NCBI GenBank assembly: GCA_015227615.1
Contig: JAALGZ010000015.1
Span: 397,001-461,000, forward strand
Direction: 5' to 3'
Length of the DNA: 64,000 nucleotides
DNA from: Labyrinthula sp. Ha
Lineage: Eukaryota > Sar > Bigyra > Labyrinthulida > Labyrinthulaceae
Of this stretch, positions 9,487 to 39,363 are shown in pieces (positions within the stretch are counted from its first letter, which is position 1; each line of letters opens with the position of its first letter). The translations under genes and the position numbers were made by a program. The notes beneath the pieces were generated by a model that saw only the letters and a program-made list of their open reading frames with translations, made no database searches and was not told where the DNA came from.

Positions 9487-9922
9487 TTCCGTTTCAGTTT
9501 ATTCGGGTTAAACTAGATGTCCATAACATGGTAGGATATTAATTTTGGCTTTTCTCATAGCTATTCGTACAGCATAACACTCAGTATGGGTTTCCATTTA
9601 ATTTGTGAAACATAACATACTTGGAATTTTGTAAGTACTATGCAAACTAAAACACTGAGATAACTAGGTTGAAGAATGAAAAGTGCTGGGTGGTCTTAAC
9701 AGTAAATGCATAAGTGATTGATGAAACCATAGTCTGCATTCCTTTTCATAAATTGGATCAGACGAGGAATCCGAAAACTTGTTGTTAGTAGACCTTCCCA
9801 TCAACCAAACTTTACGTTCTCAGTGCAGGAGTTCGTCTAACGAAGGAAAAAATGTTAAACATGGATTCAAACTGGAATATTCTATCATGTTAAAATTACT
9901 AGTCCTATTGAAAGCTTCCTCT
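9487..9922. other. spacer between ABC copy 1 and the copia element
   Basis: AT-rich spacer; no gene or RNA recognised. Clear similarity to the 3' flank of ABC copy 2 ends after 9486. Confidence 0.4.
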
Positions 9923-10661: not shown

Positions 10662-12141
10662 CAAATTTTTGTATTTGTCAAATATTCTTGACAGAATGAG
10701 ACCGATTTTGGGCAGAAACGTAAGAGGTTCAAGGGGAAGGTGTCACGGAACTTATAGAAAAGCGAACCCTCAACAAAAATGTTACAACTGTGGAGAAAGA
10801 AGACATATAAGAGCAAGATGTGCAAAATTAGTATGTGAGAACTGCAAGGGTATTGGACACAAAGCAGATGAATGTAAAAAACCGAAAATGAAAACAGAAT
10901 ACAGAGTTAACATGGCAGAGAAAAAGCAGCAATACGAGCCACAAAACGACTTCTATAATGATTATGACTCAGTGACGACAAGTAGAACTGAAAAGAAAAC
11001 AATGTATAGCAATAAATCAGTAAATGTAGCAATATTAAATATAGAAAACGACAAAAAACAAAATAAAAAACAAATAATCAATAAAAAACAAAACAAAAAT
11101 CAGAAAAACACTAAAAAACAAAACAAAAATTATATAAATTTCTTATGGGATTCAGGAGCGTCGAGTCATTTGATATCAATGGGTAAAATAAAACATGTAA
11201 GAGACATAGAAAAGATAGATGGAGAAACGTTGGATGGTGTAGCTTCCCCAACAAAACTGAAACTAGAAGCGAATATGACGGTGAAACTAGGTCACCTAGA
11301 AATAGATCTGAAGGATGTATATATACTTGACACAGAAAAACTAGTAGCTATAATATCAATCGGAAAAGTAAGCACTGACAACAACATCAAAGCTGAAATA
11401 GATGGCAAAGGAATCAACATAAAAACAGCAAACGGAGGAAAAATAGAAGCGAACCAGAATCTATACAAGAAAAACCTAGAAGTAATAAAACAGGAAGAGA
11501 ATGCAAAAAATAGTTTTTCATGGCAGAAATACTTTGGACACCCATCAAAACAGTTGCTTCTAAAAACCCTCCAATACCATCAAATAAAACCAACTGCGAT
11601 GGACAAACTGGACATCTGTAAAACATGCTCCAGAACCAAAGACGAATGGGTGCCTATAAATAAAGTTAGAGAAAAAAGAAGCGGAAAATCACTTCAAAGA
11701 GTATATTGTGATACATTAGACATACCAGTCAAATCAAACACCGGGTATAAAGGCTGTCTCGTAATGGTGGATGATTATTCTAAATACAGGTTCATAAGAA
11801 TGTATAGAAAAAAGAAAAATGTTCCAAAAATGCAGATACAGGAAATAAAATATATAGAAGAGAAGGCAGAACGAAAGATAAAATGTTTTTTCTCAGACCA
11901 AGGAAAAGAATTCATGAATAAAAGTGTAATAAGATTCCTCAGCGAAAATGGAACTCAAAGGCGATACTCGTCAACCTACACACTACAACATAATGGACCA
12001 GCAGAAAGGAGCAACCACATAATAATATCTGGAATAAAAATATTTTTACAACAGGCAAATTTACCAATGAAATATTGGTCATATGCAGCAGAAGAATATA
12101 TATATAAGAGTACAAAATATATCAATAAATTCAACAACTGA
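10588..12141 (+). pseudogene. copia nucleocapsid, protease and integrase region
   Basis: The segment has two CCHC zinc knuckles (CYNCGERRHIRARC and CENCKGIGHKADEC), then an asparagine/lysine-rich linker. Next come the aspartic protease motif WDSGASSHL, the pre-integrase HxxxC region (WQKYFGHPS ... CKTCSR), and the integrase core with catalytic Asp in YCDTLD, Asp in FFSDQGKEF and Glu in GPAERSNH. It ends by frameshift near 12135; integrase continues in the next frame. An intact element would use these to mature the particle and insert cDNA. Confidence 0.9.
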
Positions 12142-13117
12142 AAAATCCCCGCATGAATTATTATTCGGAACAAAACCAAAAATCAAGTTTGTATTCACAT
12201 TTGGCGAAGAGGTAACTTATATAGATACCAAGATAAAAAATAAAATAAAGCCGAAGAATAAGCTTGGGCTTTATATGGGAAGGTCTAAAGTATTGTCTGA
12301 ATCAAAAGTACTAGACAACGTGTCCAAAGAGATCATATTGAGCAGAGATATACGAACACTAAGACGTTCAATAACGAACCTGAAGCAGGGTAATAAGATA
12401 AAGAATGACGAAGATAAATACACGACTGAGCAGAGAGAAAATCAAAGAGAACCTCCATCAACTTACCAAGAATTCTTGAGAAAAAGAAAACAACCAGATG
12501 ATGAAACACCAGAGCACTGGATCCAAAGAAGAAACCCTCATAAAGCGGCACGTCCAATAACCTATAAATTAGCGAAGAAAACATCGAACTACAAACTTGC
12601 TGAAAAGCTGCACGGAATGAAGATACCAAATCATGAGGTCTATAAAGCAGCAAACCTAAAAAATAACAGAGAGCCAAGAAACTTTAGGCAAGCGTTCAAG
12701 TCCAAAGATAAGGCCAAGTGATTAGAGGTTTATATGAAGGAGGTGGATAAGTTAAAGAAGATCGCTCAGTGCAGATTGGTTAAATGTGAACAGACTCCTG
12801 CAAACATCACTCCAATACGCTTCATAGAATTATTTAATAAAAAGTTCGATAACGTCAAGCATGAAAATATCTATAAAGTACGTTTTGCTGCCAACGGAAA
12901 ACATCTGGAACCCGAAGAAGACGTCTATTCTCCTGTACCCAACAAGGAGATCACTCGCATATTTATAGGCTTATCCACAGCAAGTAACAAGCAACTATGG
13001 CAACTGGATATCTCTTCTGCTTACCTGAACGCTAATTTAAGTAAGAAAAGATACTATGAACTACCACAGCTTTTTCGGAAAAGAGGAAGAATTATCTGTG
13101 GGAATACAGCAAGGTAA
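12135..13117 (+). pseudogene. copia integrase C-terminus and reverse transcriptase N-terminus
   Basis: The segment begins with the integrase C-terminal motif SPHELLFGTKP and GLYMGRS, then a charged linker. A TGA at 12719-12721 sits where copia RTs usually have tryptophan, just after EPRNFRQAFKSKDKAK, and the frame continues beyond it. RT palm residues follow, including LDISSAYLNA with the first catalytic aspartate. The frame is lost near 13117. Confidence 0.8.
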
Positions 13118-13152
13118 TATACGGTCTAAAGGAAAGTAGGAGAGAGTAGTTC

Positions 13153-14190
13153 TTGGAGTTATCTAGGACGCTGGAATCTTTGGGTTGCCAAGCATGTTTG
13201 GTGGAAACGACGTTATTTCGATGGCGAATGTCAGATGGAAAGATTTTGTATTTACTTATTTACGTTGATGATATTTTATTTGCGACCAACAATCCGAAGA
13301 ATGGTAATTTCATATTGAAGAAACTACAGACGAGATACGACGTAAAATCTACGCAAAAGGCGACAAAATTCATTGATTTCGAATTCAATCAATTAGACAG
13401 CGGGGTGCTCATAAATGTCCAAAATTACATAGATGCAGTTACGATCACTTACGACTGCAAGAACACTAAATATCAAGGAACGCCACATGAACCTGGTAAG
13501 TACCACACCCCAGAGAGGAATGATATAGATGAAAAACTTTTTCAACGTATTATTGGAACATTACACTTCATTTCAGAAACTTGCAGGGCAGACATAGCGT
13601 ATGCTGTCAATCGTTTAGCTATATTTACAAAAAGTCCAATGCTACAACTACTAAAAGAGGCAAAGAAAATACTAAGATACTTAAGCCACTCAAAAGAATA
13701 CGGGTTATTTTACAATAGAAATACAAAATATTGCAATTTAGCAATATACAGCGACGCATCGTGGGGCAACGTGCCAGGGGACAGGTCTTCTTTAGATGGA
13801 CATCTTATAACAATTAACAGAGCACCAATATGTTTGAAGTTGAAAAAACAAAATGTTATAGCAAAATCATCAACTGCAGCGGGGCTAGTAGGTATCACTA
13901 GAGCACTAAGCTCAGCGGAATGGTTAAAGAATGTATTAGAGTTTTTGAAAGTGAAAAATATAACCTGGACACTGATGAGTGATAGTGTTCCAGCTATTAA
14001 GTTATTGCATGGACAGTCGTTAACAGACAGCTCGAGGCATATGGAGTTGAAATATTTTTTAGTAGAATTGTTTTAAAGAGAAATAGATGCATAATACAAT
14101 ATTTAGAAGGGGGAAGGAAGCCGACTGACGTGTTTACTAAACCGGTGAAAGAATATATATACAAGAGGTTAAGAAAGTATCTAGTTGTCT
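13153..14190 (+). pseudogene. copia reverse transcriptase and RNase H C-terminal part
   Basis: The RT active-site motif LLIYVDDILFA is intact, followed by the connection domain and an RNase H domain with YSDASWG, STAAGLVG and SDSVPAIKL. A stop at 14076 breaks the frame, and the usual C-terminal PTDVFTKPV motif appears in another frame just before the polypurine tract. Confidence 0.85.
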
Positions 14191-19784: not shown

Positions 19785-20050
19785 ATTTTGTGGTAGCTTT
19801 TAATTTCTCAAGTGTCATACTTCTTTGCTTGCATTTTATTAACCAGAATGACTTCAAACTTAATATTAGCTTGCAAAGGCAAGAACTAGGTAGATTAGTA
19901 AAACACAACTCATAATAAACCAGTCTCGATCCTATAGTCTTTCTGAAGCAAAAAAGAAAGATTGAATAAAACCGGTTACACATTAAAAATGTTTCGTTAC
20001 TCACAAATCACAACACGTAGAAGCAAAACTGCTAAAGATCAAACATTAAG
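19785..20050. other. short convergent intergenic region
   Basis: This 266-bp spacer separates the converging 3' ends of the RND gene and ABC copy 2. AATAAA-like stretches occur on both strands and could serve 3' processing; no gene is seen. Confidence 0.4.
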
Positions 20051-22862
20051 TTATTTTTTTCCATTCTCGTTTGCCTTTTCTTTCATAACTTCTTCCATCA
20101 ACTTTTCCAAACCTTCAACTTCTTTTTTTTCTCCGTTTCCTTCTAACAAACTTTTTTCTCGCTCTTTCTTCAAGGTGACTAGTCTTCTGTAGATTCCATT
20201 TTCAATCCTTAATAACTCAGTATGATTCCCTTCTTCTAGTATCACACCTTTGTCTACCACTGCAATTTTGTCAGCAAACTGTACAGTTGAAAGTCGATGT
20301 GCTACCAACACAATTGTGTGTTTTTCTCCATCATTTTGTTTCTCTGCCATAAGGTCATCTAACGCTGATTGTACCCTAGCTTGAGACTCTTCATCAAGAG
20401 CACTCGTGGCTTCATCTAATAGCACGACTTTCGGTTTTCGTAGGAATATTCTAGCTATTGCAATGCGTTGACACTGACCTCCAGATATACGAGTTCCAGC
20501 CTCTCCAACGCGAGTTTGAAACTTATCTTTAAATCCCATAATAAAATCATAGCACTGCGCTTTCTTACAAGCTTCATACACATCCTCCAACGTATATTCA
20601 TCTTCATCTAATCCGTAGGTAATGTTATACAAAATAGTTTTAGCAAACAAAGTAGAATTTTGAGCAACACACCCAAAGTTTTTTCTTAGTTCACCAACCT
20701 TGAGATCTTGAAAGTTTCTTCCGTCAAGATATATTCCTCCACTCTTCGGGTCATAGAATCTCAGGAGAAGTTTAACAATAGAAGACTTTCCTCCACCACT
20801 TCGACCAACGAGAGCACAAACAGTCCCTGGTAGAATATTTAAATTGACATCAGTTAGCACTTTATTATATGGTCTCATTTGGTAAAAGAAACTTACACTC
20901 CTTAGCTCCAGGTGTCCTTTTACCTCCCAATCTACTGGTTGCCCCTTTGTCAAATCAATGTCCGGAATATTATCCATCAACGTAAAAACTTTCTCTGCAG
21001 CCGCGGAAGACCGAGTAAAGTTAACTAAGATTCCTTGAAGCGACTGATAAGAAGAATTCATCATATTCCAATAGAATTGAAACGCAATAAGTTCACCTAC
21101 TGAAATAGATTTTGATAGTACAAGTAGACCACCAAACCACAATATCAGTACCCCGGTTCCAAGATCCAAGTAACCCGTACCCATCTCAGTTAATCCAGAG
21201 AAGAAAGCATCTTTTAACCCTGCTTTTAGCGCCAAGTTTGTATTCTCATTGAATAGTGAACACTCCTTTTCCTCAGTTGAAAATGACTTTACTTCCCTGA
21301 TATGATTCAAGGCTTCTGTAGCAACTGAGTTAGCTTGTGCGTAAGCAACCAACATTTTTCTATTCACTTTTTTTGAAAACTCTCCGTATTGATCCCAAAG
21401 AAACATAATAGGACCAACAGAAACAAAAGCAAGTAAAGAAAGTTTATAACTACTATAATAGCACATGAAGATTCCACCAATAAGTAGTATTATGTTAGAT
21501 AACAGCTGTCCCAAAGAAGTACGAATTGGATCTACCATCCCATTCACTTCGTACGACAACTTTGAAACCAGGTACCCTGAAGTTGTACCATCAAAAAAAG
21601 CAACGTCTTGAGCCAAGATATGAGAGAAAAGTTTATTTCGTACAGTAATTCCTAAAGTTCTTGCAACGACTCTGAAGAGATAATTTGATAGTCCAGTGAA
21701 AAGCCCTTGAACGAGCATAATAAATACGTATTTTTCGACATTTCCATAAAAATCGTTGACATTCCTCTCAATTAAGTTGTTTATTATTCTCCCCTGCATA
21801 TGCGGTAAGGCCAAGTTACATCCACAATTTAGTGCCAACACAGTTAAAGATACTGAAATTAAGTTCCATTGAGGTCTTGCTAATTCAAGTGCTCGTTTGA
21901 AATAACTATAGTTGGAAACGTTTTTTTCTTGCCGAACTCCTTTATCACTTCTCAACAAATTTTCTCCTACATCCTAAATACATAAAAAATACAAAAACAA
22001 GTACCTGTATGTCATCTCTCTTACAACACGCCACACAACAGTCCCAATCGCATAATTTACACCTAAACACTCCACCAACTTTATTTCTGATTGACTTTCC
22101 GCATAAATCACATCTGTGCCTGAAATACCCTGTGCCCCAAAATACAGGGTGTTTGTGCACCTTGGGAATGTAAAGACCTTCTTCCTTAGTGTCATCTGAT
22201 ATTTTAGCTCGATAGTAATATGCCATCAAGTTTATCCAAAGTACTGATACACACATAGAAAATATTTCTAAAGTTTTTTCATGTCTCCATTCGTACGAAC
22301 TCACTTTTATTCCAACAAATATTTGATATGCACTAGAGAAGAAAAACACTAATCCCAAAAACAGGTATTTATATGTTTGTGCTTTTTTTCGCGCTTTCAA
22401 GGATAGTTTCACTTTTTCTTTTCGTTCATGAAAGTCTTCAGCTTTATCATTGATTTCAGTTATTTTTTCAAACGCACCATCATTTATCTCGGCTTCGTGT
22501 GCCAAGAGCCTTTCTTTCAACTCCTCTTCTTTGTCCTGTTTAGCCTTGTGTTTATTTTCTTTTAAATGTGTAGTTTCTCTTCCAAAATATCCACCAAGAT
22601 TTGCCAATAAAGGAAACAAAATTATTCTTGATATTGCAAGTATCAAACAAACTGCTGTTCCATGTTTAAAACTATATCCTTCTTTCTCAAAAATTTCTTC
22701 CAACTTAGACTCAGAAGCACCTATCAATATCAAACACGACAGTAGATCCAGGATATGCAACAATGAAAGTAATCTATTATAATATTGTCGTTGAACTTGT
22801 CTTTTTTGCTCTTCAGATTCGGCTTGTGAAAATAAGACTTCAGCAAGCGAAACAGAATACAT
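20051..22862 (-). CDS. ABC half-transporter with N-terminal ZZ-like finger, copy 2 (inverted)
   Basis: This gene has the same 926-residue structure as the gene at 6664-9475: exon 1 at 22005-22862, a 31-nt intron at 21974-22004, exon 2 at 20051-21973. By eye the products differ at three residues: KARKKAQ instead of KAREKAQ, EREKS instead of ERERS, and NENGKK instead of NENAKK. The stop is TAA instead of TAG. All ABC motifs and zinc-finger cysteines are kept, so both copies look functional. The upstream region is not obviously shared apart from a faint match around ATGTCCT and GAACA about 50-60 nt before the ATG, so the two copies may be expressed differently. The gene converges with the RND gene. 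Confidence 0.9.
21974..22004 (-). other. 31-nt spliceosomal intron, ABC gene copy 2
   Basis: On the minus strand it runs from GTACTTG to TTTAG, identical in length and sequence to the intron of copy 1. Confidence 0.85.
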
Positions 22863-23325
22863 GTTTTATCTTTCTAATCTTTTTTGTTTATTAAGTTTAA
22901 TATGTTCTAGCAGGACATGTGTATAAGCTGGGATTACAGTTCAGCAACAGCCGTGTGCGAAACATGAGCAATTTTATAGAAATCTCTAAGAATTATCTTT
23001 TTGTCTTCATTTTATCAGGGATACATGGTTACACTTCATTGGTTGATTCTCTACATTCATCCAATCAAAATAAGCCGGTGTGTTCGTAGGAAAGTGTGGG
23101 TGCTTCTTAACGTGACAGTTTTAACGTTACTAATTCATAATCCATAATTCTAAAAACCGAAACCAAAGAGAGAGAACTGGATTGCCAGCCTTGTTTGTGC
23201 TTTGGCTAGAACTATAAAATAGATTATATTGATTTAATTTTCACCCCTTTGTGAGATAAAAATGCACCATCTTTATCTATCAGAGAATCTTTTCATTTTA
23301 CTCAAGCTTCTCTGAAGCTCTCTAT
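22863..23325. other. 5' flank of ABC copy 2
   Basis: Presumed promoter region. ATTGGTTGATT and CCAATCAA, two CCAAT-type boxes in opposite orientation, lie about 170-200 bp upstream of the ATG. No gene is seen. The gypsy insertion begins at 23326. Confidence 0.35.
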
Positions 23326-23615
23326 TATTCGGTTATTACTAATATCTGGTAAAATTTTAATAAAGACGTCTTTTTCCTGGGTATACAATAAGGGAAACCT
23401 TAGTTCAGTTCATTTACACTTTATTCACAAGTTCTTAGTTCTTAATTCGTACAACGGTTCGTATCTTCCAAGATTCCTTTGTACGTCCCTAATTTTCTAC
23501 AATATGACATTACTCCAATATATCTCAAATATTAAGGTACTCACGGAAATGAGCACTTTGCTAATCCCGAGTCACTATTTCAGTTCAGCTCAAATATTCC
23601 AATTTATCCACAACA
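23326..23615 (-). repeat. gypsy 3' LTR (290 bp)
   Basis: In element orientation it begins TGTTGTGG and ends CCGAATA. It matches 30627-30916 over the full length. The flanking CTAT at 23322-23325 is the target duplication. Confidence 0.9.
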
Positions 23616-23630
23616 TTGCCCCATTAGCAA
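23616..23630 (-). promoter_or_regulatory. putative gypsy polypurine tract
   Basis: In element orientation AATGGGGCAA directly precedes the TGTTG terminus of the 3' LTR. It is short and imperfect but in the right place. Confidence 0.4.
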
Positions 23631-23859
23631 AGTCTCATTTTTCACTCTTATCTCAATTTTCATATCCTTCTTATTATCTCCAACTTCACCAACAACACTT
23701 TTATTACAACTTATTCCAACTCCAAATCTTCATTTTCAAATTCAGTCTTAATAACTAACCTCAAACACCCTTAATTCCAAATCTCACACTTTCCAAATTT
23801 CAAATTCACAATAAATTCTTGATTGGCGTACTCAATACAAGCTCCCAAGTTTTTAGTTT

Positions 23860-24186
23860 CTTATTATTTTCCAACAAAATCCAAATTCAACACAAGTCTT
23901 TAAACTCCAAGTTCAACATAAACTCTCAAACATTCAAATCAATATAGATTCTCAAACATCAAATTCCATATAAACTCACAAAATCCGAGTTCAATACAAA
24001 TTCCCAGGTTCATCATTCAATATAAGTTCTCAAGTTCAAAATCAATATAATTCTTTCAGTTCCAAGTTCAAAACAAGTTCTTCAAAGTTCCAAGTTCAAA
24101 ACAAATTTTCTTAAAGTTCCAAGTTCAAAACAAATCTTTCTCAAAGTTCCAAGTTCAAAACAAATTTTTCAAAGTTCCAAATATTT
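23860..24186 (-). repeat. degenerate minisatellite in the gypsy 3' noncoding region
   Basis: From 24060 to 24180 a 28-30 bp unit recurs about four times in plus-strand reading (TTCCAAGTTCAAAACAAAT plus a T-rich spacer and AAAG). More degenerate units with CCAAGTTCAACA-like cores extend back to about 23860. The region is untranslated and lies between the methyltransferase and the polypurine tract. Confidence 0.75.
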
Positions 24187-24242
24187 CAGATCAACTGTCA
24201 CTTCATATATCATAACATCACATTTTCTTACTTTCAAATATA

Positions 24243-25531
24243 TTACAATTCATCTTCAACAGATATCCATCCTTTTCTCAAATTATTTTTTCTACAAAAC
24301 AAATCCAAATATCGCGCCTTAGCACTAAAACATCCTTCAATCAGCTCATATATTTTTTTGGCTTCCTACAATTTCCAGTGCTAGGAGCCATCGAAATTTC
24401 TTTACCAAAGTTACGCTTCTCCAAATTTACCGGCAATTCACCTTTCCCACAAATCAACAGTTCTTCCACACATTTCAATGTCATGTTCCCTAAAGTAGAA
24501 CGCACCTTACCATTACACGTAATCTTTACCCACAGCACATGGTCTATATACTTCAATCCCCATTTCTCTAAACATCGAAATATAATATCCCTCTTGCCCC
24601 AAAATGTCCAAATAAAAATCAACTTGTTCCTTGCAACCTTATCAAAATTCAACTCTAACAACTTACTATCCTGTACTTGGTTGAAATCATTCGCTGGGCC
24701 TCTTATAGGATTTCCTTGACAAAACTGATATGGTGGATCCAACATAATTACGTCAAAAGTTGCCCCTTTATAATCATTCAAAAACTGAAACACATATCTC
24801 TTAACACTCATCGATCCTGCAGGTATCACCCATTTATATATTTTTACTTTTCTTGTCCTCATCATAATTGCATTGTTACAAACCCCAGCCTCAATTTTTA
24901 TCCCAGCCACTCGACATGGTACATCTTCAACTAATATTTACCCCATCCTTATCAATTCATATATTCTGTTGATTTTTTCTAAATCCTCCGTTATTACCCT
25001 CTTCGGCTTCATTAAATCCGAGACCCGTGTTCTCAACATTTCTAATTCTACAGCAAGATCGTCATTCAACTCAGGATATATTCTACACATCTCCTTTTCC
25101 CCTTTTAACATCTTTACTACCATCCTCAATCTCGCTTTCATATGATCTAGATTGTTCCAATCATGAACCACCAATGGTATCTTCAAACATTCTCTTTTAC
25201 TCAACTTTTCATGCATCCCAACGAATTTCCATCTTGTCCACCACTTTCGTAGAATCAATTCAGAGACACTCCTTATCTTTCTTTCTACCTTATATTCCTC
25301 TCCCAACCATCTAATATTCCTCCTGCTAACAACCTCAAAATCTAACCGAAGATTGGTGTAATCTCCAATGGCTTTAACATTCACCCATACCTGAAGCTTG
25401 TTATAAATTTGTTGACGAGTACGCCCCGGCATATATTTTAAAATCTCGTCATAATTAGTAAAACCAAAATGCATCACCAAATTCTTTAACAATAATGCTT
25501 GATGTATGGTCCAACCAACTTTCCATCCTAA
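24243..25531 (-). pseudogene. retrotransposon-borne Myb/SANT-like plus MT-A70 adenine methyltransferase
   Basis: On the minus strand the frame opens just after the integrase stop. Its first 45 codons look like a Myb/SANT repeat: GWTIHQALLLKNLV, YDEILKYMPG, then the recognition-helix pattern GRTRQQIYNKLQ. A basic, possibly coiled linker follows. One TAA (24938-24940) interrupts; the same frame then continues into an MT-A70 domain: FDVIMLDPPYQF (DPPY, the N6-adenine methyltransferase motif IV), LIFIWTFWGKRD, CLEKWGLKYIDHVLWVK and CVEELLICGKGE. A stop at 24341 follows a 7-base A run (24353-24359). In the neighbouring frame the expected C-terminal MT-A70 signature appears (KPKKIYELIE, LFCRKNN, GWIS) to a stop at 24243. 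MT-A70 enzymes methylate adenine N6 in RNA or DNA; the target here is unknown. This copy is dead. Confidence 0.85.
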
Positions 25532-26307
25532 TCATACGTAACTCGCGTAGCTTCCACTCCTCTCACTTGAAATCTTGATATGTTCACATCTTCCCACTTC
25601 CATCCATTAGGGTATGCGACTTTCAAATACCTCTTTGCCTCATTCATCTCTCTAGTATTTTTTTCCGCTAAATATTTCACCACTAGTTTAGGTAAGTCTT
25701 CAAACATGATATTAGGTGGTTCCCAGGTCCAATCCCTTTCATTACTAAAACCTCTCCATTCCACTTTCAATAAAAAACCTCCTGCTTCTTCTTTTATACC
25801 TCTGAATCGTTTCACTTCCAACTTTCTGCTGTCGTTCAAAAATGTTATCTTCGTTCCAGGGTTAGGAAGGAACTCACTTGGAGGAAAGAAAATAATACGA
25901 GAAGAATGCACCTCCATTGTTTTCCCCATAATTGTTGCAACCTCATAGAGATGTTCGCTAAGTTGCTTCTTCACAATATATGGTCCAACCCACTGCGGCT
26001 TCAACTTTTCGTGTTTAATAGCTTTACTAACTAACACGAATTCTCCTTCACTGAAACACAACGGGGTAAGTTTAAATCTCTTGTTATATAATGCATTCTG
26101 ATACTCCCTCGCTCGTTGTGCAAATCCAAACGCTTTCTCCCGGTATGCTAAAATATCTTTTTGAACTTCTTTCGTCGACTCTTCTAAGGTCTTCTCCTGC
26201 TTTTCAGTCAAATCTAAAACTCCTGTTCTTCCTAATACATCCTTACACGGCATCTTTCCTGAAAATATTTGAAATGGTGATAAGTTTCCTCTAGATCTCA
26301 TTGGCAC
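25528..26307 (-). pseudogene. gypsy integrase C-terminal part with chromodomain
   Basis: The segment begins with the end of the integrase core (SPFQIFSGKMP), an alpha-helical region, and the SH3-like/GPY-type module (LKPQWVGPYIVKKQLSEHLYEV). A chromodomain follows: EVKRFRGIKEEAGGF, LLKVEWRGFSNERDWTWEP and DLPKLVVKYL. Chromodomains at integrase C-termini define chromoviruses and tether integration to modified histones. About 60 residues follow the chromodomain before the stop, and the Myb-like frame starts at this point in the -1 frame. Confidence 0.9.
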
Positions 26308-26312
26308 AGAGT

Positions 26313-26759
26313 TTAAAAATATTGCACTTTATCCAAAAGTATCGGCCAATTCTCTGCAGTCAGCGCCAACTCCGATATAGACGTCCTAAAGTGTTTTAAA
26401 ATCTGTCTGTTCTGCACTTCAGTCGCACCATTTGTGAACGGAGCGTACGCGCATGAAAAGTGTTGTGATCCCCCACTTTCTTTGACAAACTCAGTCACCA
26501 CTTGATTCAGAAAATGTGATCCTTTATCCGAAATCAGCACAAAATCATCGGTCATTTTGTAATGAGCGTGAAAAGTCCATAAAGCTTTAACTGCTTCACC
26601 CGCTTTGGCCTTCCTGCATCTGTGCAACATCGTTAATCTTGACAATGAATCAATTAGCGTCAAAATATATCCCTCTCTTTTACTGAGATACAAAAAATCA
26701 CTCAATATGAGCGCCCTACACATTTTTGCTAAACTTGTTACATTGAACGGTCTTCTCAT
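26313..26759 (-). pseudogene. gypsy integrase catalytic core
   Basis: The DDE core is readable: first Asp in LSDFLYLSKREGYILTLIDS, second in VLISDKGSHFLNQ and Glu in TNGATEVQNRQIL. It is frameshifted relative to both the upstream zinc-binding region and the downstream chromodomain segment. Confidence 0.85.
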
Positions 26760-27072
26760 TATTATTTGCAGGTCGCTGGTAGTGAACGCGTTGTCTTCTA
26801 AATCTTTTCCACCCCTCCATGAGAAGACTAGTCACCTCGTGATCCAAAGGCGTGTATTCCTTTTCAATTACTTTCTTTTCCAATACAGCAGCTCCATGGT
26901 TAAACCGCAAGTTCGTGTGCATCAATATTGAAGGTATCAGTGACGGAGTTACAATCAACTTTCCTTCTCGCTTCTACAACTCAGTTATTCTCTCACCCAG
27001 ATCTCTTCTTTGTAGCCCTAGCAAATAACCCCCATCCTTCTCGGACCACGACTCCGTACAGTTCGGACTTCT
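26716..27072 (-). pseudogene. gypsy integrase N-terminal zinc-binding region
   Basis: This is the same frame as the RNase H segment, interrupted by a TAG at 27073 and a further TAG. It shows a histidine pair in SILMHTNLRFNHGAAV and HYQRP, with the cysteines partly lost by the frameshift to the core near 26750. The assignment rests on position between RNase H and the DDE core. Confidence 0.6.
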
Positions 27073-28113
27073 CTAACTTAAATGCATCTCGTCTATTTTT
27101 CTCCAAAAATCATCTATGTCTGTAACTTCTTCCATCGACATCTCCAACGAGTAAGTGTTCAATAACTCCTCTTCTTCCCGATTACTTTCTGAGTTTAACC
27201 ACCTACTTAACGCGTCAGCTGCTACATTACAATTTCCATCAATATGGTGAATCTCCAGCTGTATATCTTGGAAAACTATACTCCAGTGAGACAACCTTTC
27301 AGAATAAACCTTTTTTCTACACAGGCTAGGGTTCAAAATATATACTAAATTGCGATGATCCGTGAATAGAATTTTCCTGGCTGAGTTGCCTTTTAGATAA
27401 TAATCATACTTTCGAGATGCTGCAATCACTGGAAACAACTCCTTCGAAGAAATATACCAATCCAGCGTTGAGCCTACAAAAGTACCACTAGACATCGCTA
27501 TGACTTTAAACTGCGTTGCTAAGATTTGCTTCACGTCAATTTCTTCCTCTGCCTGACATATAAAATACACCCAATGCTTCTTTGAAGCGTCCACAAACAA
27601 AATGACACCCAACTTCGCATCAAAATACCCTAGTGTCGCTGTGAATGATTCTTCTAGTTTTTCTACCCGCTCCCTATAAGCTAAATTCCTTTCTTCTGTC
27701 CAAACAATGAGCTCCTTCCTTCTTTCCAATGCTTTTATCTTTCCAACTATGGAATATTTTTCCGTAAGTATGAACCTCAATCGAGCAAAATATGGTAATA
27801 TTCCTGCGATCCAATTTCGAATGAAGATAAGCTGTGGCAGCTCATGTACATATTTTGGTTTTCTCCTCCCTAAAAGATCAACAACGCATTTCTTATCCAG
27901 CCTGTGACCCTCCTCCGTCAATAAATGTCCACATAAAACAGCATCTTTTAAAAAAAAATCACAATTAGTTATATTCAACCACAATCGCTTCTGTGTTAGC
28001 TGCTTCAAAAACTTCTTCGTAACCAGGCAGAATTCTTTAAGCGTTGCTCCCAGCAATATAGTGTCATCTATCCATTGCAAAACATTTCTACAAAATAACC
28101 CCTCCGGTTCCAC
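27073..28113 (-). pseudogene. gypsy reverse transcriptase C-terminus and RNase H
   Basis: The RT active site reads LQWIDDTILLG (IDD in place of the common YxDD). It is followed by the thumb and connection (CGHLLTEEGHRLD) and an RNase H domain: VILFVDASKKHWVYF, LFPVIAASRKYDYYLKG, FTDHRNLVYIL and the terminal GNCNVAADALSRW. The frame is shifted relative to the upstream RT part at about 28110. Confidence 0.9.
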
Positions 28114-28793
28114 ACCTCTCTTATTTTTCTTTCCGAAAACAGTGCTGGTGTATTATACCATCCTTGTGGTGCTCCTTTAAAGCTGTAGCACAAGCCCCAC
28201 GGCGTGCAAAATGTAAAAAATCGTTGCGAATCCTCTTGTGTTGGCAAGTAGTTAAAACCACTCAATAAATGATACTGACCAAAATATCTCATCCCTTTAA
28301 CCTTAGACAGCTGATTATTAATATCTGGCAGCGTGGAATCTACTTTCCTGGTATAATTGTTCAACGGCCGAAAATCTATAACAAATCGGTACTTCTTTGG
28401 TCCTACTTTAGGTGCGATTAAAGAATGCATAGATATCGTCGGGTTCCTGTTCGGCTTGATTATTCCAGCTCTTAACATCTGCTTGATCATGTTCCTAAGA
28501 ATGTCTTCTTTTTCCGGTCCCATCGGTCTCGACGTGTATACGCCCACTTCATCTTCATTCTTTACATTACATTCAATAGGCTTCAACTTTGATATCTGAG
28601 TTGGACTCTTGTCATCCCCAAATCCTTGAGCGTTGTTCATCAATATCTCTCTTAAGCAATTTAGATCTTTCGCTGAAACTATATTCTTCTTCATTATATC
28701 CACCAATTTCTCATTGATTATTTTCTTTAGCCTCAAAATATATTCTTCAATAGAAACTTCCAGATTTTTTCCGATACCTAACTCATCCTTCAA
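28068..28793 (-). pseudogene. gypsy reverse transcriptase N-terminal part
   Basis: Fingers and palm motifs of Ty3-type RT are clear: GIIKPNRNPTISMHSLIAPK, RFVIDFRPLN, and FCTPWGLCYSFKGAPQGW (usually MPFGLxNAPxxF). LLSGFNYLPTQEDSQ replaces the usual DLxSGYHQI; the catalytic Asp that normally precedes this motif is not seen (GQYHLLSGF), so this copy may also have lost a catalytic residue. It shares its frame with the protease segment upstream. Confidence 0.85.
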
Positions 28794-29615
28794 TACTTCA
28801 TTGTCATACGCTTGGAATATTATAGGTGTCTTCCTTTCCCCAACAATTCCAACCCCTGTGACATTAACTTATTTCACCTTTATCCCCTTCTTATTTCTTC
28901 TTAGCACTTTCTTTTCGAACCAATCCATCATAACCTCGTCACCTACCTTCATTTCTGCCGACGTACATTCTTTAGCTTGTTTCCTCAATTGTTGAAGTGG
29001 ACTCAATCCATGTTTTCCTTAGAGATCGTCTCCTAAAAGTAAGTTAGTCCATCCTTCCACATCATTCACCAACAAAACTTCTACTTCCCCAAAATCATAT
29101 ACTTTTCGTTCTTCTAAACGTATCTATATTCTCATTACACCTGAATGTGTCACCCAATGCTTGACTCCATTTACGACTCTAACTCTAATAGGTTCTCTTA
29201 ATTCCCTTAAGCGACTACAATATCTTTCAAATCTGTCTCTTGCTGTGGCGGATGTATCTGCGCCAGAGTCCAAACAACCACATACTATGAACTGCTGGCC
29301 ATCTTTTTCTACTACTACGTCATAAGTATTCTCACCTACTTTACTCCCCAAAAATATATACACGTTTTCCATTGACAAGTCTTGCTCATATCCTCGCATC
29401 TCTTCTATTGCTGCCATTGTTAAACTTCCAACTTCATACCTTTGAATGTTCTCAAAAGCTAATCTTAATGCCCCAGGTTCCTCCCTTTCCTGCGCCTCGG
29501 CGTTCATTTCTTCTTTATCATTTTCCACTTGCTGCATCTTACGTCCTTTACCTAGATATTTTCTTTGTGCCTTCAATTGCAACCCCTCCTTGTATCTCTT
29601 TAAACGATCCAACAT
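28794..29615 (-). pseudogene. gypsy protease region
   Basis: The aspartic protease motif CGCLDSGADTSAT lies in this frame, followed by a second half with LLLGDDL. Three nonsense codons (TAG at 29124-29126, then two TAA) lie between protease and RT without a frameshift. The segment begins with a glutamate- and lysine-rich stretch overlapping the end of gag. Confidence 0.8.
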
Positions 29616-30598
29616 TACATTATCTGGCGGCCTAAAAATGGTCTGGGATTTTGTTTTCCTCTAGCCACGAGATCACTTTTCGCATAGCAAGTATTCTCCT
29701 TGTGGCCATATCTATGGCAAAATGGACACGGGTCTAAACTCTCACTGTTTCCATTCGACCCCCAATTATCAGTTTGCTTCATATTGAAACAGCCTACCTT
29801 ACCTTGAGGCTCAGATATCTCGATCCTTTTCACTTCCTTCTTTATAAATCTGCTTCCACCTATCCTGTGTTTTATTTCATTTTCATACGGACTACCTTTA
29901 CGCATCTTCTCTCTTACATGATACGGTGGTATGCAGCTTATAATATATCTTTCCAGATCCTTCAGATCCAAAGTGCATAGTGAAGGTTTGATCGTCAACA
30001 TATCTTGCCGTACCCAAATATAACTGGATAACAGCCTAAATATAGAAGAGTATATTTTCTTTTTCGAACATGTGCTTTCCTCCGGTAACAACTGAAGTAC
30101 TTCTCTAATTTTACTAAAAATTTATTTGACTGCGTTTTCTTCTAAAATTCCCAAGTTGAACCTAACATTATTCAATATAACCTAGTCAGGAGCTTTTAGG
30201 TCCTTCATTTTCTCTTCGTCCACTATCTCCTGTAAATGTTTAATCAGCACATTATTAGACTTAGTCACGTTCAGTCGTTTCAGGTGTTTAAACAGCATCA
30301 TATCCATCTTCACGTTCAGATTCACCTTTTTTCGTTGTGCCGCATTTAATCTTTCATACTGCGAAATAAAGCGTTCGCAACTCTGCTTCGAAAGGTCGGT
30401 TAACTTATCAATTTCGAAGTCCATGCAGCACTCTTCATCTCGCCGGTTATTGCGGGTTACCTCCCTCAATACATTACCAAGATCCATGAGCAAAGTATTA
30501 ATTTAGTTCTAGTTCAATGTTCTAATTCGTCCGCTATCAGGTCCAGTTCCAGTTCCTGTATTTTCAGCTCCATTCGTATTCTCTGTGTTTCCCGACAT
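29615..30598 (-). pseudogene. gypsy Gag with one zinc knuckle
   Basis: The probable start is the ATG at 30598, after the 5' LTR and untranslated leader. One frame runs from there to 29615 but is cut by TAG (30509-30511), TAA (30503-30505), TAG (30182-30184) and another TAA. A single CCHC knuckle, CPFCHRYGHKENTC, lies near the C-terminus. The N-terminus is rich in Asn, Thr and Gly. Confidence 0.8.
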
Positions 30599-30626
30599 TA
30601 TTGTAATCCAGGGCAATATTCATCAA

Positions 30627-30916
30627 TATTCGGTTATTACTTATATCTGGTAAAATTTTTATAAAGACGTCTTTTTCCTGGGTACACAATAAGGGAAACT
30701 TTAGTTCATTTCAGTTACACTTTATTCACAAGTTCTTAGTTCTTAATTCGTACAACGGTTCGTATCTTCCAAGACTCCTTTGTACGTCCCTAATTTTCTA
30801 CAATATGACATTACTCCAATATATCTCAAATATTAAGGTACTCACGGAAATGAGCACTTTGCTAATCCCGGGTCACTATTTCAGTTCAGCTCAAATATGC
30901 CAATTTATCCACAACA
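30627..30916 (-). repeat. gypsy 5' LTR (290 bp)
   Basis: Partner of 23326-23615, followed on the plus strand by CTAT (30917-30920), the second copy of the 4-bp target duplication. The base after it in element orientation (TTGATGAATATTGCCC) is the place of the primer-binding site; I cannot assign a tRNA. Confidence 0.9.
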
Positions 30917-33900
30917 CTATCAACCCAAGAAATCCACTCTTGTGAAAGAGCTCCTAGTTTAACTTGGGTGCAAAATTTAAGTGATTTTCTTCTGAGCTTG
31001 GAAAAACTATAAAAGAAATTAAGCGACAGCTCCTACAAGGTATTCTGATAGTTTTATTTCATGGTTAACAGATTTCAGAAAATTTGTCACTTTCAGTACT
31101 AAGTGGGCGGAACAGGCGCAAGAATAAAGACCAAGTGAATCCTGCTGTTTTCTGGCATATTGCACATAATGAGTAATTGAGGTACTAACTGATTTCTCAC
31201 AATAAAACCATTAATTACTCGGGCATGATATCTCCCTGGCACTTTTGAAGCGAGCCTACATTACCACTTTGCTTGTTTTCATATATTGATGGCCTTACGG
31301 CGGCAATGTAAGCGTTAAATGGAAGAGACCCCGAAAAACATCAGTTGTATGATCATTCTTATAATTAAAATATTACTTGCATCGTATATAAAACTTGGTA
31401 CAATGAGTTTAACTCCAGGGCAGGTAAAATTTTTTCTACCCATGATTTCGAAATGGAGAGCTTTTTTTCCATATTGATTGAACTTCTACCACGAGGGTTA
31501 ATATGTAATAAAAAATAAAGGTTTATAAGAGGTTTTTCCTCGAATACAAAAATAAAATATAAAATCTGGTTTTAATATCCAGAAACCAATGCATTGTATC
31601 TAAAACTTTGTTCAAGTTTGTTTCTTCAGGACTGCAGTTTTTAAAACCGTGGTGACTAAGGTAAATGTTATGTACTCTGTTCTATAGTGTGCTGGGCCTT
31701 AATTTAAATGCAACAAAAAAGCATTATACATTAGGCGAGGCTTCATTTGGTTAAGTTTTCTCCCTTCCAAATATAATCATGAGATATCCTATGAATCATA
31801 ATTCTATTTGCAACAAAATTAAGAATTTTACGTTTACACCTGAATGACCATACACTGAATAACTATAGAAGTATAACGAGAACCTGTTTTTGTTGTCCTT
31901 TAATGGTTTTTGCCTAGACTAAATGTTAATGGAAATTACTAAATGTTATTATTAGCCTACTACACGGGTTAAAATTAAGTTTGTGAGGTCGTTTAAAAGG
32001 ATCAAGTCTGGACCTAGAATACCATAGCTCTCCCACATAGTCTGTAATTATTGGGCTTAACTAAAAGGTAAGAAATAATCCCCGGGTGAGTTAGCAGGAA
32101 AAAGCCATGGGTAAAGCTATTATGATTTACAGCCTGGAAGGGGCCAAAGCTTATTTCTGGAATTGTATTTTACATAAAATATGGTATTTGCCTCAAGTAA
32201 AAGTGTTATATTTCCTCTTTCATGAAAATCCCATGCTTCTATCTTATTAGAATCCTGACTTGGAACGTGTAGATTCTTAGCAGGGATTGTGACAAAGAGT
32301 TTTTGCATCTTTTCAAATTTAACTAGTTTTGTTGAATTCTAAGTTGACAAGAATTGATAGGGTGAACATCTTCTGTTAACATAGGATAGATTCTATAAAA
32401 ATGTATCAACACAACTATCCTAAGTGGTTAAACAAGAAAATATCCATTTCAATGTGATATGACATGCAGGTGCTCTCCCCTTTGAGCTATTTCCAGGTGA
32501 CCACGGGGTTGTTGCAAATAGTAGTTGAATGATGGTATAAACGCGTAAAAACCATTCACTAATTTACTCCATTCTTCCAGATAGTTTTAGCACCCATGTT
32601 AAAGCAATTGGCCCAAGTGTTATGAGTTTCTTTTATGGGCTTTATGAAATATGGGGGGGTAAGTGGCCCCTTATTCAAATATACACTGACCTAGTTGAAA
32701 CATATGTTCTTCTTTAAATATTTTCTAAGAAGAGTGTGTGCTCAATTCGCATATGTGAACACCTTTGAACCATCGATAAATGATTTCAGTGAAATAAAAA
32801 AATTCTTATCAAAATATTTTCAAGAGATTTTTATTAAACCATGAAGAGAGTAGGAGTTCCTTACAACAAGAAATATTTCATAGAATGTCTTGGTAATAAT
32901 TTATTTCTTGGAAAAATTGAATATATAGCCCAGAGTTTTGTACTGAGGTACTAGTTACAATATATAACTCGCCCCGGTTGCTACATTTCCATTGCAAAAT
33001 CTTTGTGATAATTAGCATTCCCTGATTGGAATTGAAAGTTTATTGGTTTATCCTCGGAAAACAAAATGAATTCCGAATAACTCCTGCAAGAACTTCTGAT
33101 GTTGTTAGTACTATTAAGCGAACTCATTTTTCTGTTGAATACATTTGCATTGACATGCGCCTATTTAAGTAGACTAGTATTAAATGGCGTAGAGATAAAT
33201 ACTAATTTAGGAATTTAAGAAAGTGGCTTAGAGCCAAATTTTAAGATTCTGACTAGAAACCCCATCCTTTCCCGTGTCTCAACTCTAAACTTTACAGATA
33301 AGAATTTTCTGGCTCATTCCAAGGTCTTAAGTTCATCATCCTTTAGCTACGTTTTTGTCATCAGGAATATGCCTCAAAGTTCATTCGATTTGTCATAAAA
33401 AAACGATTCCTATGTTGATTCTTACTATAAATGAGAAATGTTGGTATTTGATGAATATCAAATGATTCTGAATCCTTTCTGAGCATAAATTAATTATCAA
33501 CTTCAAATTACGCCATGTAGCCCTTATTAGGTGGATAGTACTGAGGAAAATTTGTAGTTAAGAATTTGAGGATCCTTAAACTCAAACTGAGCTAAAACAG
33601 CCATGTGAAATTTTAAGGATTATCAACACTCAGTAAGAGACCTAAAGGCATCAATAAGAAACCCATTGAAGATACCAAAATTTTCAAAACCTACTTAAAC
33701 ATCTTAAGGGAATCCTTCACTCAGTTTCCTACTTCTCACTCAGTCAAGATCGCGAATTATTTACCCAGAAATCGTTAAAGGGTTCCTGTTTTCTCACTCA
33801 ATGTGACATCGACACTCAGTGAGTCACTGGAATTTTTTTAAATGCTCAAATAAGCTCTCAATCAAGAATCACTGTTCATTCCTAACATTCGGCATGGTGT

Positions 33901-35894: not shown

Positions 35895-38800
35895 TCAGGA
35901 TGTTCCAGTGAGTCCAAGAAGTTCGCTTACATAGGTCAAGGGGTTTATTCTAGCTGGTGCAGTTCCACGGTATCTCGCTGCTCGTTCCAGATAGTTTTCT
36001 TTTCTTGGTGCTCTTGATTCTGTGCCCGGTACGTTGTAGGTTCTTCTTAGACGTATTGGTTGGGGTGGTCCGTGGTTTGGTGGATCCTGGATGGGCGGCA
36101 CAGGATCGATATCTGCTTCTTCTTCTAGACCAAGTTTCCGACATGCTTCAGTGGGAGATATATATTTTGGGTCTTTCGGTTCTAGATGGTTGTTTATTCC
36201 AGCTTCTCGAAGAATATGAATTTGTCTGTCAGCTGTTGCATCGTCTGCATCTACATATTTTCTTCTCTGCTCAAGTAGAATCTTCTGGATGTCCAAGTCA
36301 CCTTGACAGAACCTGTATTCTTGGATTGGCACGTTGTTCAAGATGGAGTTTATTTTCCTTGTCAAGAAGTTTAGTTTTTTCTTTATATTATTGTTTAGGG
36401 GCCAGTTGCCGAGGTTATATATTCCAGGAGCTAAGACCATGCTGCGTGCTAGTTGTCTCTTCACTTTTTTGGTCAGAATGTTGCTGGAGAGTATGTCCCT
36501 GTATTTAGTAAGTCTTGCTTCGCACTTGTCCAGGTTAGACAGCACATGTTCCTGCGCTATTCCAGTGGAGTTAAAGACCACGCCTAAGTACTTCATTTCC
36601 TTAACTGGTTGGACTTCTTCTCCTAGCACTGATATTGATTCAGCTACTGGTTGCAGCATCTTCTGGACGATGTATTTAGTGTCTTTGACAGCAAATGTCC
36701 CTGCTCTTCTTCGATTTAAAGTTCCATCGCAAAAACGACTTCTAAGGTGTGCCTTTAAAGACTTCTCTCGATGAAAGTATCTTTGGCACTTTTCGCAGAA
36801 AAAATTGGTGAGAAGTTTATTTATGGTTTTATCCGGTATTTGTCCTGTCAAAGAATATCCTTCGTCTGTTAATAGTATTTTTGTTTTAGTTAAGTTTATT
36901 CTTAGGCCAGAGAGGGATTCAAGTTTGTAAAGCTGTTCAATGAAGGAACTTATTTGGTTGTTGTTTTTACAAAGTGCAACCAAGTCATCTGCAAAAGCTA
37001 GATAGTTAAAGATGTTTCCTGCTACTTCTACGTTTGCCAAGGTATTTGTATTTATCCTTTTTATTGTAGAATTGAGCACCAGTATGAATATAGCTGGTGA
37101 AAGTGAGTCTCCTTGAAGTACTCCTCTTCTCAAGTATACCGTTTTGGACAGATGTTTCCCTTCTGAGACTTTGACTGTAGCATTTTTATATAATACCCGG
37201 ATGAGTTTCCTGAGTTTGCTAGGCACTCCATGCTCCTTCAACGATAGTTGTATGAAGTCATGGTTGACTGAGTCAAAAGCCTTTTGAAAGTCAATGAAGA
37301 GAAGTTTCAGTTTTGTGTTCTGCAGCAGTTTTTTCTTCACAATATTGTTTAGGATTTCAATCTTGTTTGTTGTGGAGTGCCCTGACCTGAAACCTGCTTG
37401 ATAAGAAGGTAGTTTGCTGATAATTGGTTGAAGTCGGTTGTGGATTATCTTCGTTGTCAGTTTGAAGGCTGTGTTCAAGAGTGCTATGGGCTTGTATGAT
37501 CCTGGTAAATTCGTTTCTCCCTTTTATTTGTAGATATGAATGATTTTCCCAAGGCAGAACTGTTTCTTCATTCTCTGGCTTAATGATGTTTTCCTGATGA
37601 GTTCTTGGATTTCTCTTAGTAGAATTTTCTGAACAGCTGATGATGCTTTCAACACTTCGTTGTTGATGCAATCAACACCTGTGGCACGGTTATTCTTTAG
37701 TTGTCTTATGCATACCATGACTTCATCCATTAGCGGAGGATTTGAGTTTATGTGTTCTTCTGGAACCGGTTCATATATTGGTCTACAGTAATGCACCCTT
37801 TCATCTTGAGTCAAGTGTATTTTTGCTATTGGTGGAAGTTGTTGACTAGCTATATAGTCACTGAGTATTTTCAACCTCTGGCACGTATCTACTTTATTTC
37901 CTTTGTCATCTTTAGTGATCCGGGCATAGATTTTGGCTGTTGGCTTTACTAGATTCAGCAGTGAGTATGCTTCTCTTGTGCGGTTTTGCTCAAACAGGGA
38001 CTGTATTTTACTAGCAGTTTCAATGTACCAGTTTATTTTGTCTTTCCTTGCACTTCTTTTTACTGCGTTGGTGAGCTCCTTCCTTTTTCCCACTGTGGAT
38101 GTATCCCAGAGTGAGTTCTTCCTTCGTAGCAGTTCTCGTGTTTGATCGGATGCTCTTTGTTCTACCGTGTTGTTACTCTGTTCAGGTACGAGATCTTTAA
38201 CCAACTTTGGAATGATCTGCGTCAAGGCTTCGTAATCTCTTTCTTCCTCATTTAGTTTTAGGAGTTCCAGAGTAATCTTGTGATCCAGTTGTTGTGCAAG
38301 TTGCTTGTTCAAGAGGAGTTGGGAGAGATCTTTCTGGGGCGTTTTTTTCTATCTCTTCTTGCCTCTTTGGGATTTCCTCAGCTCCACCATAATAGCAACA
38401 TGGTCAAACTTCTCTTTCTACCAGATCCAGTTGCTGGTGCCCCTTCTGGGCTTGAACAGATAAATTCTTTCTGGTTTGTTGGTGATGAAAAAGTCGGTTT
38501 CCGATATCTTCGTATTATTATATCGGGAATAGAATGTTCCATGTTTTTTCGCTCCCTTCTTCTCAGTTACATGCCTGTGATTAACAATCGAATACCCTTT
38601 AATTTTTAGCCAATTTGCTAGCAGCTTTCCATTCGCGTTGCTTCTTTTTGAGAATCCCAGCTTACCCTCCTTCTTCAGCGTCGTTCTACTCACTTGTGCA
38701 TTGAAATCACCACCTAAAAGTAACGTCCTTCTCTTGTTCAGGTTTCTTGTTACCACACTCAACTCTTTCAGGAACTTTCTGTAGGATTCTCTGCCTAGTC

Positions 38801-39215
38801 CACAGTGTGAAGCGTAGCAGTTCACTACATTAATCTTTTTCTTGCCGGTGCCTTGGAGAACTACTTTCAGGATCCTGTCCCTAGTACTTTGGAACGAAGA
38901 GACGTTGCTAGCAAGTTCTTCAGCCAAGTAGGTCGCTACGCCTGCAGCTCCAGTAGGCGGCTTTGAGAAAAACCACTTACCTTTGCTGGTGCTGACTTTC
39001 ACCCTTTCCATCAACATCTTGTAGCCTGATTCGTGTAACTCTTGCAACATCAAAATCGACAGTTGCTGAGTTTTTTCTTCTAAAAGGTTAAGTTTTGTTG
39101 TAGTAAGACCACCTACGTTCACAGAAACTACAAGTAGTCTCTGTTTGCGCTGGCTCGCACACTCTAGGCCCTCTGTGGAGGTCGGAGTCGAGCAGTTCCG
39201 TTGAGGCAAGGACAT
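35895..39215 (-). pseudogene. LINE endonuclease/reverse transcriptase with internal zinc finger
   Basis: About 1106 codons lie in a single frame. The endonuclease (38418-39215) shows LMLQELHES with the catalytic Glu, NVVNCYASH, LLLGGDFNAQ and SETDFFI. The linker includes the NNRATGVDCINNEVLK motif. RT follows: FRSGHSTTNKI, LFIDFQKAFDSVNHD, LRRGVLQGDSLSPAIF and active site LAFADDLVAL. Between RT palm and thumb lies a zinc finger, CEKCQRYFHREKSLKAH plus a late Cys. The C-terminus is rich in proline and arginine, with no RNase H. Three nonsense codons interrupt the frame (TAG 38418-38420, TAG 38349-38351, TAA 37524-37526) but there is no frameshift. Confidence 0.85.
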
Positions 39216-39363
39216 ATAACTGTTTTTCTTGCTTCGTGCCCAAAATTTTGTTTCTGGTGTAAGAATATATGAGAATTGGTATGGCTTAAACGGTCACCAC
39301 TCACTTCTTTGCTTTGTAAAAAGTCCCAGAAAGTTTACCGTTTAAAAGTTGAAACAAACAAAA

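Follow-up and report, generated by a model that had tools for sequence, protein, structure and literature searches.

The genome of Labyrinthula sp. Ha (50.84 Mb in 153 contigs) harbors a diverse, chromodomain-bearing lineage of Ty3/gypsy-type LTR retrotransposons in which an AMT1-like methyltransferase domain of the MT-A70 family is a regular and selectively maintained part of the polyprotein. One decayed copy lies at positions 23326-30916, on the minus strand, of the window, the entire 64,000-nucleotide stretch analyzed here (C57:397001-461000). The initial annotation of this stretch had described a 7.6-kb element with 290-bp LTRs and a 4-bp target duplication, carrying an MT-A70 domain downstream of the integrase in the same orientation, and the boundaries and domains collected in Table 1 bear this out. 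The two LTRs (TGTTGT...CGAATA) are 96.9% identical, the target duplication ATAG is present on both sides, and the domains recognized by Pfam follow each other in the order reverse transcriptase (RT), RNase H, integrase core, a weak chromodomain, a Myb-like domain, and MT-A70; the span 24243-25531 contains the Myb-like domain besides MT-A70. The copy is broken, with its genes split over separate frames and the end of the MT-A70 part frameshifted within the domain. The previously reported motifs DPPY, IFIWTFWGKRD and WGLKYIDHVLWVK are all found in the MT-A70 translation; the C-terminal R..N..GW signature also exists, down to the stop at 24243, but in a frame that differs from that of the rest of the domain. 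The gag remnant is matched in Pfam by zf-CCCH only, and weakly (E 0.002, under the cut-off), a Pfam scan of the protease remnant gave no match, and an Rfam scan of the 64-kb window likewise returned none.

Table 1. Features of the MT-A70-bearing Ty3/gypsy-type element in the window, in the 5' to 3' order of the element
Feature	Position	Strand	Basis
Target-site duplication ATAG, 5' side	30917..30920	.	Flanking sequence
5' LTR, 290 bp, TGTTGT...CGAATA	30627..30916	-	96.9% identity with 3' LTR
Near-palindrome AATATTGATGAATATT spanning the LTR end, 2 mismatches	30615..30630	-	Sequence
gag remnant in two frames, CCHC-like knuckle (CPFCHRYGHKENTC)	29615..30493	-	Motif by eye
Protease remnant (LDSGAD), upstream of RT	29124..29615	-	Translation, motif by eye
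Reverse transcriptase, first part	28068..28793	-	PF00078, E 1.4e-6, 28.6 bits, slightly under the cut-off of 29.6
End of RT and RNase H	27073..28113	-	PF17917, E 8e-13
Integrase core	26313..26759	-	rve, PF00665, E 6.4e-8
Integrase C-terminal part and chromodomain-like region	25528..26307	-	PF00385, E 0.0016, under the cut-off; clear in relatives
Myb-like DNA-binding domain and linker	24938..25492	-	PF00249, E 9.8e-6, 26.0 bits, cut-off 24.4
AMT1-like MT-A70, motif DPPY...NPIRG	24341..24910	-	PF05063, E 3.4e-14, 53.6 bits, cut-off 23.9
MT-A70 C-terminal tail in another frame (FCRKNNLRKGW...DEL stop)	24243..24340	-	Sequence reading
3' LTR, 290 bp	23326..23615	-	LTR pair alignment
Target-site duplication ATAG, 3' side	23322..23325	.	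Flanking sequence

The window holds further features. A copia-type element (10588-14076, plus strand; rve, zinc knuckle, RVT_2) and a LINE-type element (35895-39215, minus strand; endonuclease, RVT_1) contain no MT-A70 in the five frames that were scanned. An inverted duplication of 2.84 kb (6653-9489 and 20037-22872; 99.6% identical) has frames of equal length in both arms, the scanned arm encoding an ABC transporter, and a protein of the ROCO kind (39349-43644, plus strand; 1431 aa) shows a Roc-COR and a leucine-rich repeat match.

The genome-wide search for elements with the same 3' module that the initial annotation had called for uncovered a large family. A search of the genome contigs with PF05063 gave 354 candidates, the best 150 of which were scored, and all 150 lie above the curated cut-off. 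Four MT-A70 searches merged yield at least 342 distinct MT-A70 places, and three RT searches merged at least 302 distinct related RT loci, the best 150 of 354-550 candidates having been scored in each. At 257 of the 302 listed RT loci an MT-A70 domain is found 3.0-5.2 kb downstream on the same strand, a share that is uninformative on other gypsy clades because the RT queries (L022, L025, L027) all came from MT-A70-bearing elements, and gypsy clades without MT-A70 may escape them. The control counts at the same distance from these loci are 10 (upstream, same strand) and 2 (downstream, other strand). Conversely, 124 of the 150 places of the PF05063 search have an RT at this spacing, and a merge of fewer search lists had given 124 of 146 RT loci with MT-A70 downstream. 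Among the matches listed, 85 of the 342 MT-A70 places are without RT and 45 of the 302 RT loci without MT-A70; six of these 45 (C33:2041, C50:1039, C69:2013, C77:2385, C100:1329, C128:2294, all on the minus strand) adjoin a contig start, with the expected place off the contig.

Since hundreds of genomic MT-A70 domains lie at an equal distance behind RT, the MT-A70 domain of the window stands well above chance, and its PF05063 match together with its MTA1 score of 84 bits rules out a chance or distant resemblance. The MT-A70 domain at C88:2143279, considered as part of another type of transposon, proved to be of L027-type likeness (54% identity). Protein searches, whose reach is relatives sharing 5-residue words, found no polyprotein of such a kind outside EukProt models that resemble the same genome.

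Twenty stretches were fetched for closer study; they were picked for long open frames and are not a random sample. Their open frames measure 1686-2586 aa within the stretch, some being cut by its end; RT is present in all 20, and in each of them MT-A70 lies at the C-terminus or close to it (Pfam, C-terminal 650-aa pieces). Two of them, L012 and L022, unite RT, RNase H, integrase, Chromo and MT-A70 within a single frame, so that the RT - RNase H - integrase order in one Pol is seen intact there and in pieces in the window copy. LTR pairs occur in 16 of the 20 stretches (127-560 bp aligned, 93-100% identical); in L016, L017, L026 and L027, the frames or neighbors of which reach the stretch end, no LTR pair is found in the fetched stretch. 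With ends free to shift by 12 bases, a 4-bp target duplication was detected in 9 of the 13 elements tested and was absent in L010, L014, L023 and L028. Direct LTRs with a short target duplication, as in Ty3/gypsy elements, are a property of the window copy and of most of the fetched elements examined for them. In a PDB scan the RT of L022 matches several retroelement enzymes, scoring best with 7kse (E 1.4e-15), followed by 8r0s and 7o0h, and also matching the Ty3 entries 4ol8 (E 2.5e-12) and 7q5b (E 1.6e-11). A chromodomain C-terminal to the integrase, a feature of chromoviruses, is present in many of these elements and weak in the window copy: Chromo was recognized in 11 of the 20 C-terminal 650-aa pieces (Pfam, E up to 0.011), and that of L012 (E 2.5e-5, slightly under the cut-off) was seen in a longer piece. 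Myb-like domains occur in six of the 20 C-terminal pieces (L015, L016, L017, L020, L023, L028; E up to 0.004).

In ten of the 20 elements (L009-L017, L023), the retropepsin motif D[ST]G[ASC] follows the integrase and precedes MT-A70, and in five (L018, L020, L022, L024, L028) and in the window copy it is upstream of RT; the search within the long frame did not find it in the other five (L019, L021, L025-L027). A Pfam RVP match was obtained for L015, L016 and L017. By plain count, 12 of 12 elements (L009, L011-L015, L019, L020, L022-L024, L028) have a perfect palindrome of 12-18 nt at the 3' end of the 5' LTR, a position usually taken by a tRNA primer site starting with TGG. These palindromes (e.g., TATTGAATTCAATA, AATATTGGATCCAATATT, TTGTTCGAACAA and TCAATATTGCAATATTGA) are family-specific in sequence and sit at nearly the same position, that of L028 being 12 nt further in and that of the window copy having two mismatches. 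Self-priming from the LTR is unsupported, as the primer-site region has no reverse-complement match longer than 9 nt in the LTR.

The methyltransferase domain is most closely akin to AMT1/MTA1. Against a profile built from 16 element domains, MTA1 reaches 244 bits, compared with 156 for METTL3, 85 for METTL14, 77 for 7cv6 ('Methyltransferase-like protein 2', which we take to be a METTL4 relative) and 48 for MTA9; the PDB chains labeled 'MT-a70 family protein' (7f4r, 7f4l, 7yi8 and others) are presumably Tetrahymena MTA1. The same preference is seen for the window domain, which scores 29 bits with METTL14 and 26 with METTL3, and for that of L022 (MTA1 103, METTL3 56, METTL14 31), while L009 is an exception in that MTA1 and METTL3 tie at 113. 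Behind the catalytic motif, all 20 elements (19 by script, L019 by eye) and the window copy possess the sequence xPxRG, which, by sequence comparison, is in MTA1 and absent from METTL3. METTL3 has CCCH fingers; among the Pfam matches of the 20 C-terminal pieces there is no zinc finger. Because the kinship is to AMT1, DNA rather than RNA would be the likelier substrate in most families. A 350-aa AMT1-like metagenome protein (P0005, on a 1.3-kb contig) shares the motif DPPW...NPTRG.

The catalytic motif DPP[WY] is intact in 15 of the 20 fetched elements and reads DPPY in the window. It is altered in the other five, to DPAW in L013 and L015, DPPG in L014, DAPW in L023 and DLPF in L028, and DPAW is also found in the further copies L002, L003, L005-L007, L037 and L038. 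One large family (L013, L015, L001-L007, L037, L038, with L001 being the same place as L015 and L004 the same place as L013) has DPAW for DPPW in every copy seen, with dN/dS below 0.5. The five altered motifs and the shared DPAW indicate that some families may be inactive, and the DPAW family is perhaps a non-catalytic or partner version of the enzyme.

The history of the domain can be read from a tree of 31 MT-A70 rows. The prokaryotic rows stand apart (support 97/93), and six element lines (four groups, plus L019 and L023 as single lines) meet METTL3 and the AMT1 rows at an open fork. Path distances computed from RT and from MT-A70 for 18 elements agree closely (Mantel r 0.85, with none of 2000 permutations as high), a result that leans on the well-supported shallow groups, the deep forks being weak in both trees. 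Selection was assessed in pairs of related copies: dN/dS is 0.062 for MT-A70 and 0.053 for RT in L009-L012, 0.070 and 0.045 in L011-L012, and 0.27 and 0.064 in L009-L011, a pair with a dS of 0.034. The ten pairs among five L013-type (DPAW) copies range from 0.08 to 0.47, some close pairs reach MT-A70 values of 0.2-0.5 at low dS, and in 11 between-family pairs the silent sites are saturated or nearly so. At sites that change the amino acid, MT-A70 has diverged more than RT in all 15 of the compared pairs, and MT-A70 is therefore kept, albeit less tightly than RT. Co-divergence with RT and purifying selection indicate that the elements had MT-A70 before their present families diverged and that selection has retained it since.

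From these data we infer that the domain was acquired once, out of the AMT1 branch. The competing view, that several element lineages took up AMT1- or METTL3-type domains independently, as has repeatedly happened with DNMTs elsewhere, is in our judgment rather unlikely, although it finds several points of support. In the free tree, rows of METTL3 and AMT1 are interspersed with the element lines, METTL3 grouping with L009-L015 (92/91) and L016/L017 with the host AMT1 (82/91), and a tree constrained to hold all 19 element rows in one clade is worse by 18.5 log units and only just not rejected (p-AU 0.071); a clade of the elements together with AMT1 is not rejected either (p 0.135). Furthermore, L027 takes different positions in the RT and MT-A70 trees, though weakly so, and the protease motif has the two locations mentioned above. 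Independent captures are at odds, on the other hand, with the agreement between the RT and MT-A70 distances and with the identical C-terminal position of MT-A70 in 20 of 20 elements.

The genome also contains what we read as a host AMT1 candidate at a locus distinct from the elements. This separate open frame of 327 aa (L008, C91:220293-221273) scores 250 bits with MTA1 and 127 with METTL3, is at most 41% identical to any other of the 122 scored places, and has no listed RT 3.0-5.2 kb upstream. The six best alignments with element proteins within the surrounding 3.5 kb all fall on the MT-A70 end, and the one with L021 extends upstream by about 300 bases more. Two other places considered as host MT-A70 genes, L037 (C75:479974) and L038 (C1:1965795), are by their look L013-type element fragments with DPAW, L037 also having the protease motif LLDSGAG. 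Cytosine methyltransferases of the PF00145 type occur at two places only, one HhaI-like and one DNMT2-like, in a six-frame search that an intron-split gene could escape; with just two such places, adenine is the likelier DNA mark here. The HhaI-like frame (L039, C77:362853-363845) encodes a C5 methyltransferase of 340 aa in a eukaryote assembly.

As to function, the explanation that we favor, and to which we would give an even chance, is that the built-in C-terminal AMT1-like MT-A70 domain, kept since before the families split, methylates the cDNA or the surroundings of the insertion so that the new copy stays transcribable. Positioned behind the integrase and the chromodomain, with a Myb-like domain between in some families, the domain would travel with the integrating complex, methylate adenines in the element cDNA or around the new insertion, and in this way copy the host 6mA mark of active chromatin, rendering the new copy transcribable. 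In the AMT1-encoding species studied (15 of 18 sequenced), AMT1 is described as the main writer of 6mA, which is found on transcribed genes, and it writes 6mA at ApT, in linker DNA, with an enrichment past the start of active genes (PMC12695648). Because AMT1-type 6mA sits on active genes and adenine is the likelier mark here, an element-borne 6mA writer could give insertions an active-type mark. In favor of this explanation we count the single frames of L012 and L022, the regular pairing of RT and MT-A70 loci, the kinship to MTA1, the invariant xPxRG, the Mantel result and the dN/dS values, the catalytic motif retained in most elements, and the AMT1-like host gene. Against it we count the five altered catalytic motifs, the grouping of L009-L015 with METTL3, the score tie of L009, the p-AU value of the single element clade, the faster change of MT-A70 than of RT at amino-acid-changing sites, the higher dN/dS of some close pairs, the choice of the 20 elements by frame length, the description of AMT1 with partners (AMT6/7, p1, p2), and the absence of a 6mA enrichment on transposable elements in the species of PMC12695648. 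A further-reaching proposal, which we advance only tentatively and consider somewhat doubtful, is that the elements mark themselves: a chromodomain reader, in some families a Myb-like DNA binder, and an AMT1-like writer joined in one polyprotein would put the 6mA of host active chromatin on each insertion; a selfish element, and not a host gene, would then supply most of the adenine-methyltransferase genes of this organism and perhaps much of its 6mA.

The MT-A70 family also takes in the mRNA writer METTL3, and the element domain might instead be an RNA m6A writer that acts on the genomic RNA of the element and affects its stability, translation or packaging. The METTL3-side tree position of L009-L015 and the equal scores of L009 speak for this reading, as does the uptake of a functional RNA m6A demethylase domain, with the reverse activity, by orchid Ty3/gypsy elements (PMC9289625); yet the window domain, L022 and the profile of 16 domains are all far nearer to MTA1 than to METTL3, the AMT1-type xPxRG is universal among the fetched elements, and their C-terminal pieces lack a zinc finger, so that we hold an RNA substrate to be unlikely. 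The methylated adenines could also serve to pass the cDNA off as self or to block a nuclease, a benefit that we regard as improbable; we know of no adenine-sensitive defense here, and this reading differs from the favored explanation in the benefit alone. The location in Pol is, however, the same as that of the DNMTs for which a self signal on the cDNA was proposed (PMC5890265), and the scarcity of PF00145 in the six-frame search makes adenine the likelier host mark.

Similarly improbable, in our estimation, is a purely non-catalytic role, in which the domain would pair with or displace the host AMT1 or its partner, or steer integration to AMT1-marked active genes. AMT1 and METTL3 are described as acting in heterodimers with non-catalytic partners (PMC12695648), and the DPAW copies have dN/dS values of 0.08-0.47, but DPP[WY], needless for pure docking, is retained in three quarters of the elements and in the window. 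Finally, a host MT-A70 gene lying by chance between LTRs, or a functionless capture by LTRs, is what the broken window copy, taken alone, would look like, and the initial annotation had named a single MT-A70 gene with LTRs around it, and no related elements, as the finding that would overturn its proposal. The at least 342 MT-A70 places, the fused single-frame polyproteins ending in MT-A70, the genome-wide pairing with RT, the co-divergence of the two domains and the low dN/dS in close pairs lead us to reject this view, for which we see scarcely any likelihood.

Among known systems, chromoviruses resemble the elements described here in having a chromodomain behind the integrase; we know of no MT-A70 in chromoviruses, and none was found in the literature searched, which covers the field in part. 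In the same literature, mostly open-access and incomplete and hence not a proof of absence, no retroelement with MT-A70 was found at all, in keeping with the initial annotation, which knew of no described gypsy element with such cargo; close precedents exist in a gypsy element with Dnmt3 and in DIRS elements with Dam-like adenine methyltransferases. KnitGypsy-Dnmt3 of Klebsormidium nitens, likewise a gypsy LTR element, encodes a DNA methyltransferase within its Pol frame, is present in several copies and is reported to be under purifying selection (Ka/Ks below 0.2; PMC5890265). It differs in having a Dnmt3-type cytosine C5 enzyme and a DIRS-like repeat arrangement, whereas the Labyrinthula elements have a C-terminal MT-A70 akin to AMT1, plain direct LTRs, and hundreds of copies in many families; a C5 methyltransferase as element cargo was not encountered, PF00145 being confined to the two genomic places of the six-frame search. 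DNMTs are also reported from LINE and DIRS elements of Symbiodinium, and Dam-like enzymes from DIRS elements (cited in PMC5890265 and PMC6338049). The latter share the combination of a retroelement with an adenine-type methyltransferase, but they have a tyrosine recombinase, split repeats and a bacterial-Dam-like enzyme; the present elements have an rve integrase, simple direct LTRs and MT-A70, and no tyrosine recombinase is among their Pfam matches. The orchid Ty3/gypsy elements likewise combine a gypsy element with an enzyme of the N6-methyladenine pathway, but theirs is an RNA m6A eraser, according to PMC9289625, and the domain found here is of the writer type. The AMT1/MTA1 writer itself is the best sequence match and shares DPP[WY] and xPxRG, but it is a host gene product acting with partners and not a domain of a retroelement polyprotein.

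In PMC12695648, AMT1 is portrayed as belonging to the host and linked with active transcription, its families having 'remained relatively static'. In Labyrinthula sp. Ha, a relative of this writer is now part of a mobile element, in hundreds of places, and this raises the possibility that the elements put a chemical mark of their own on the site of insertion. If active, they would be the adenine counterpart of the DNMT-carrying retrotransposons and would offer a natural test of whether 6mA is a cause or a consequence of permissive chromatin.
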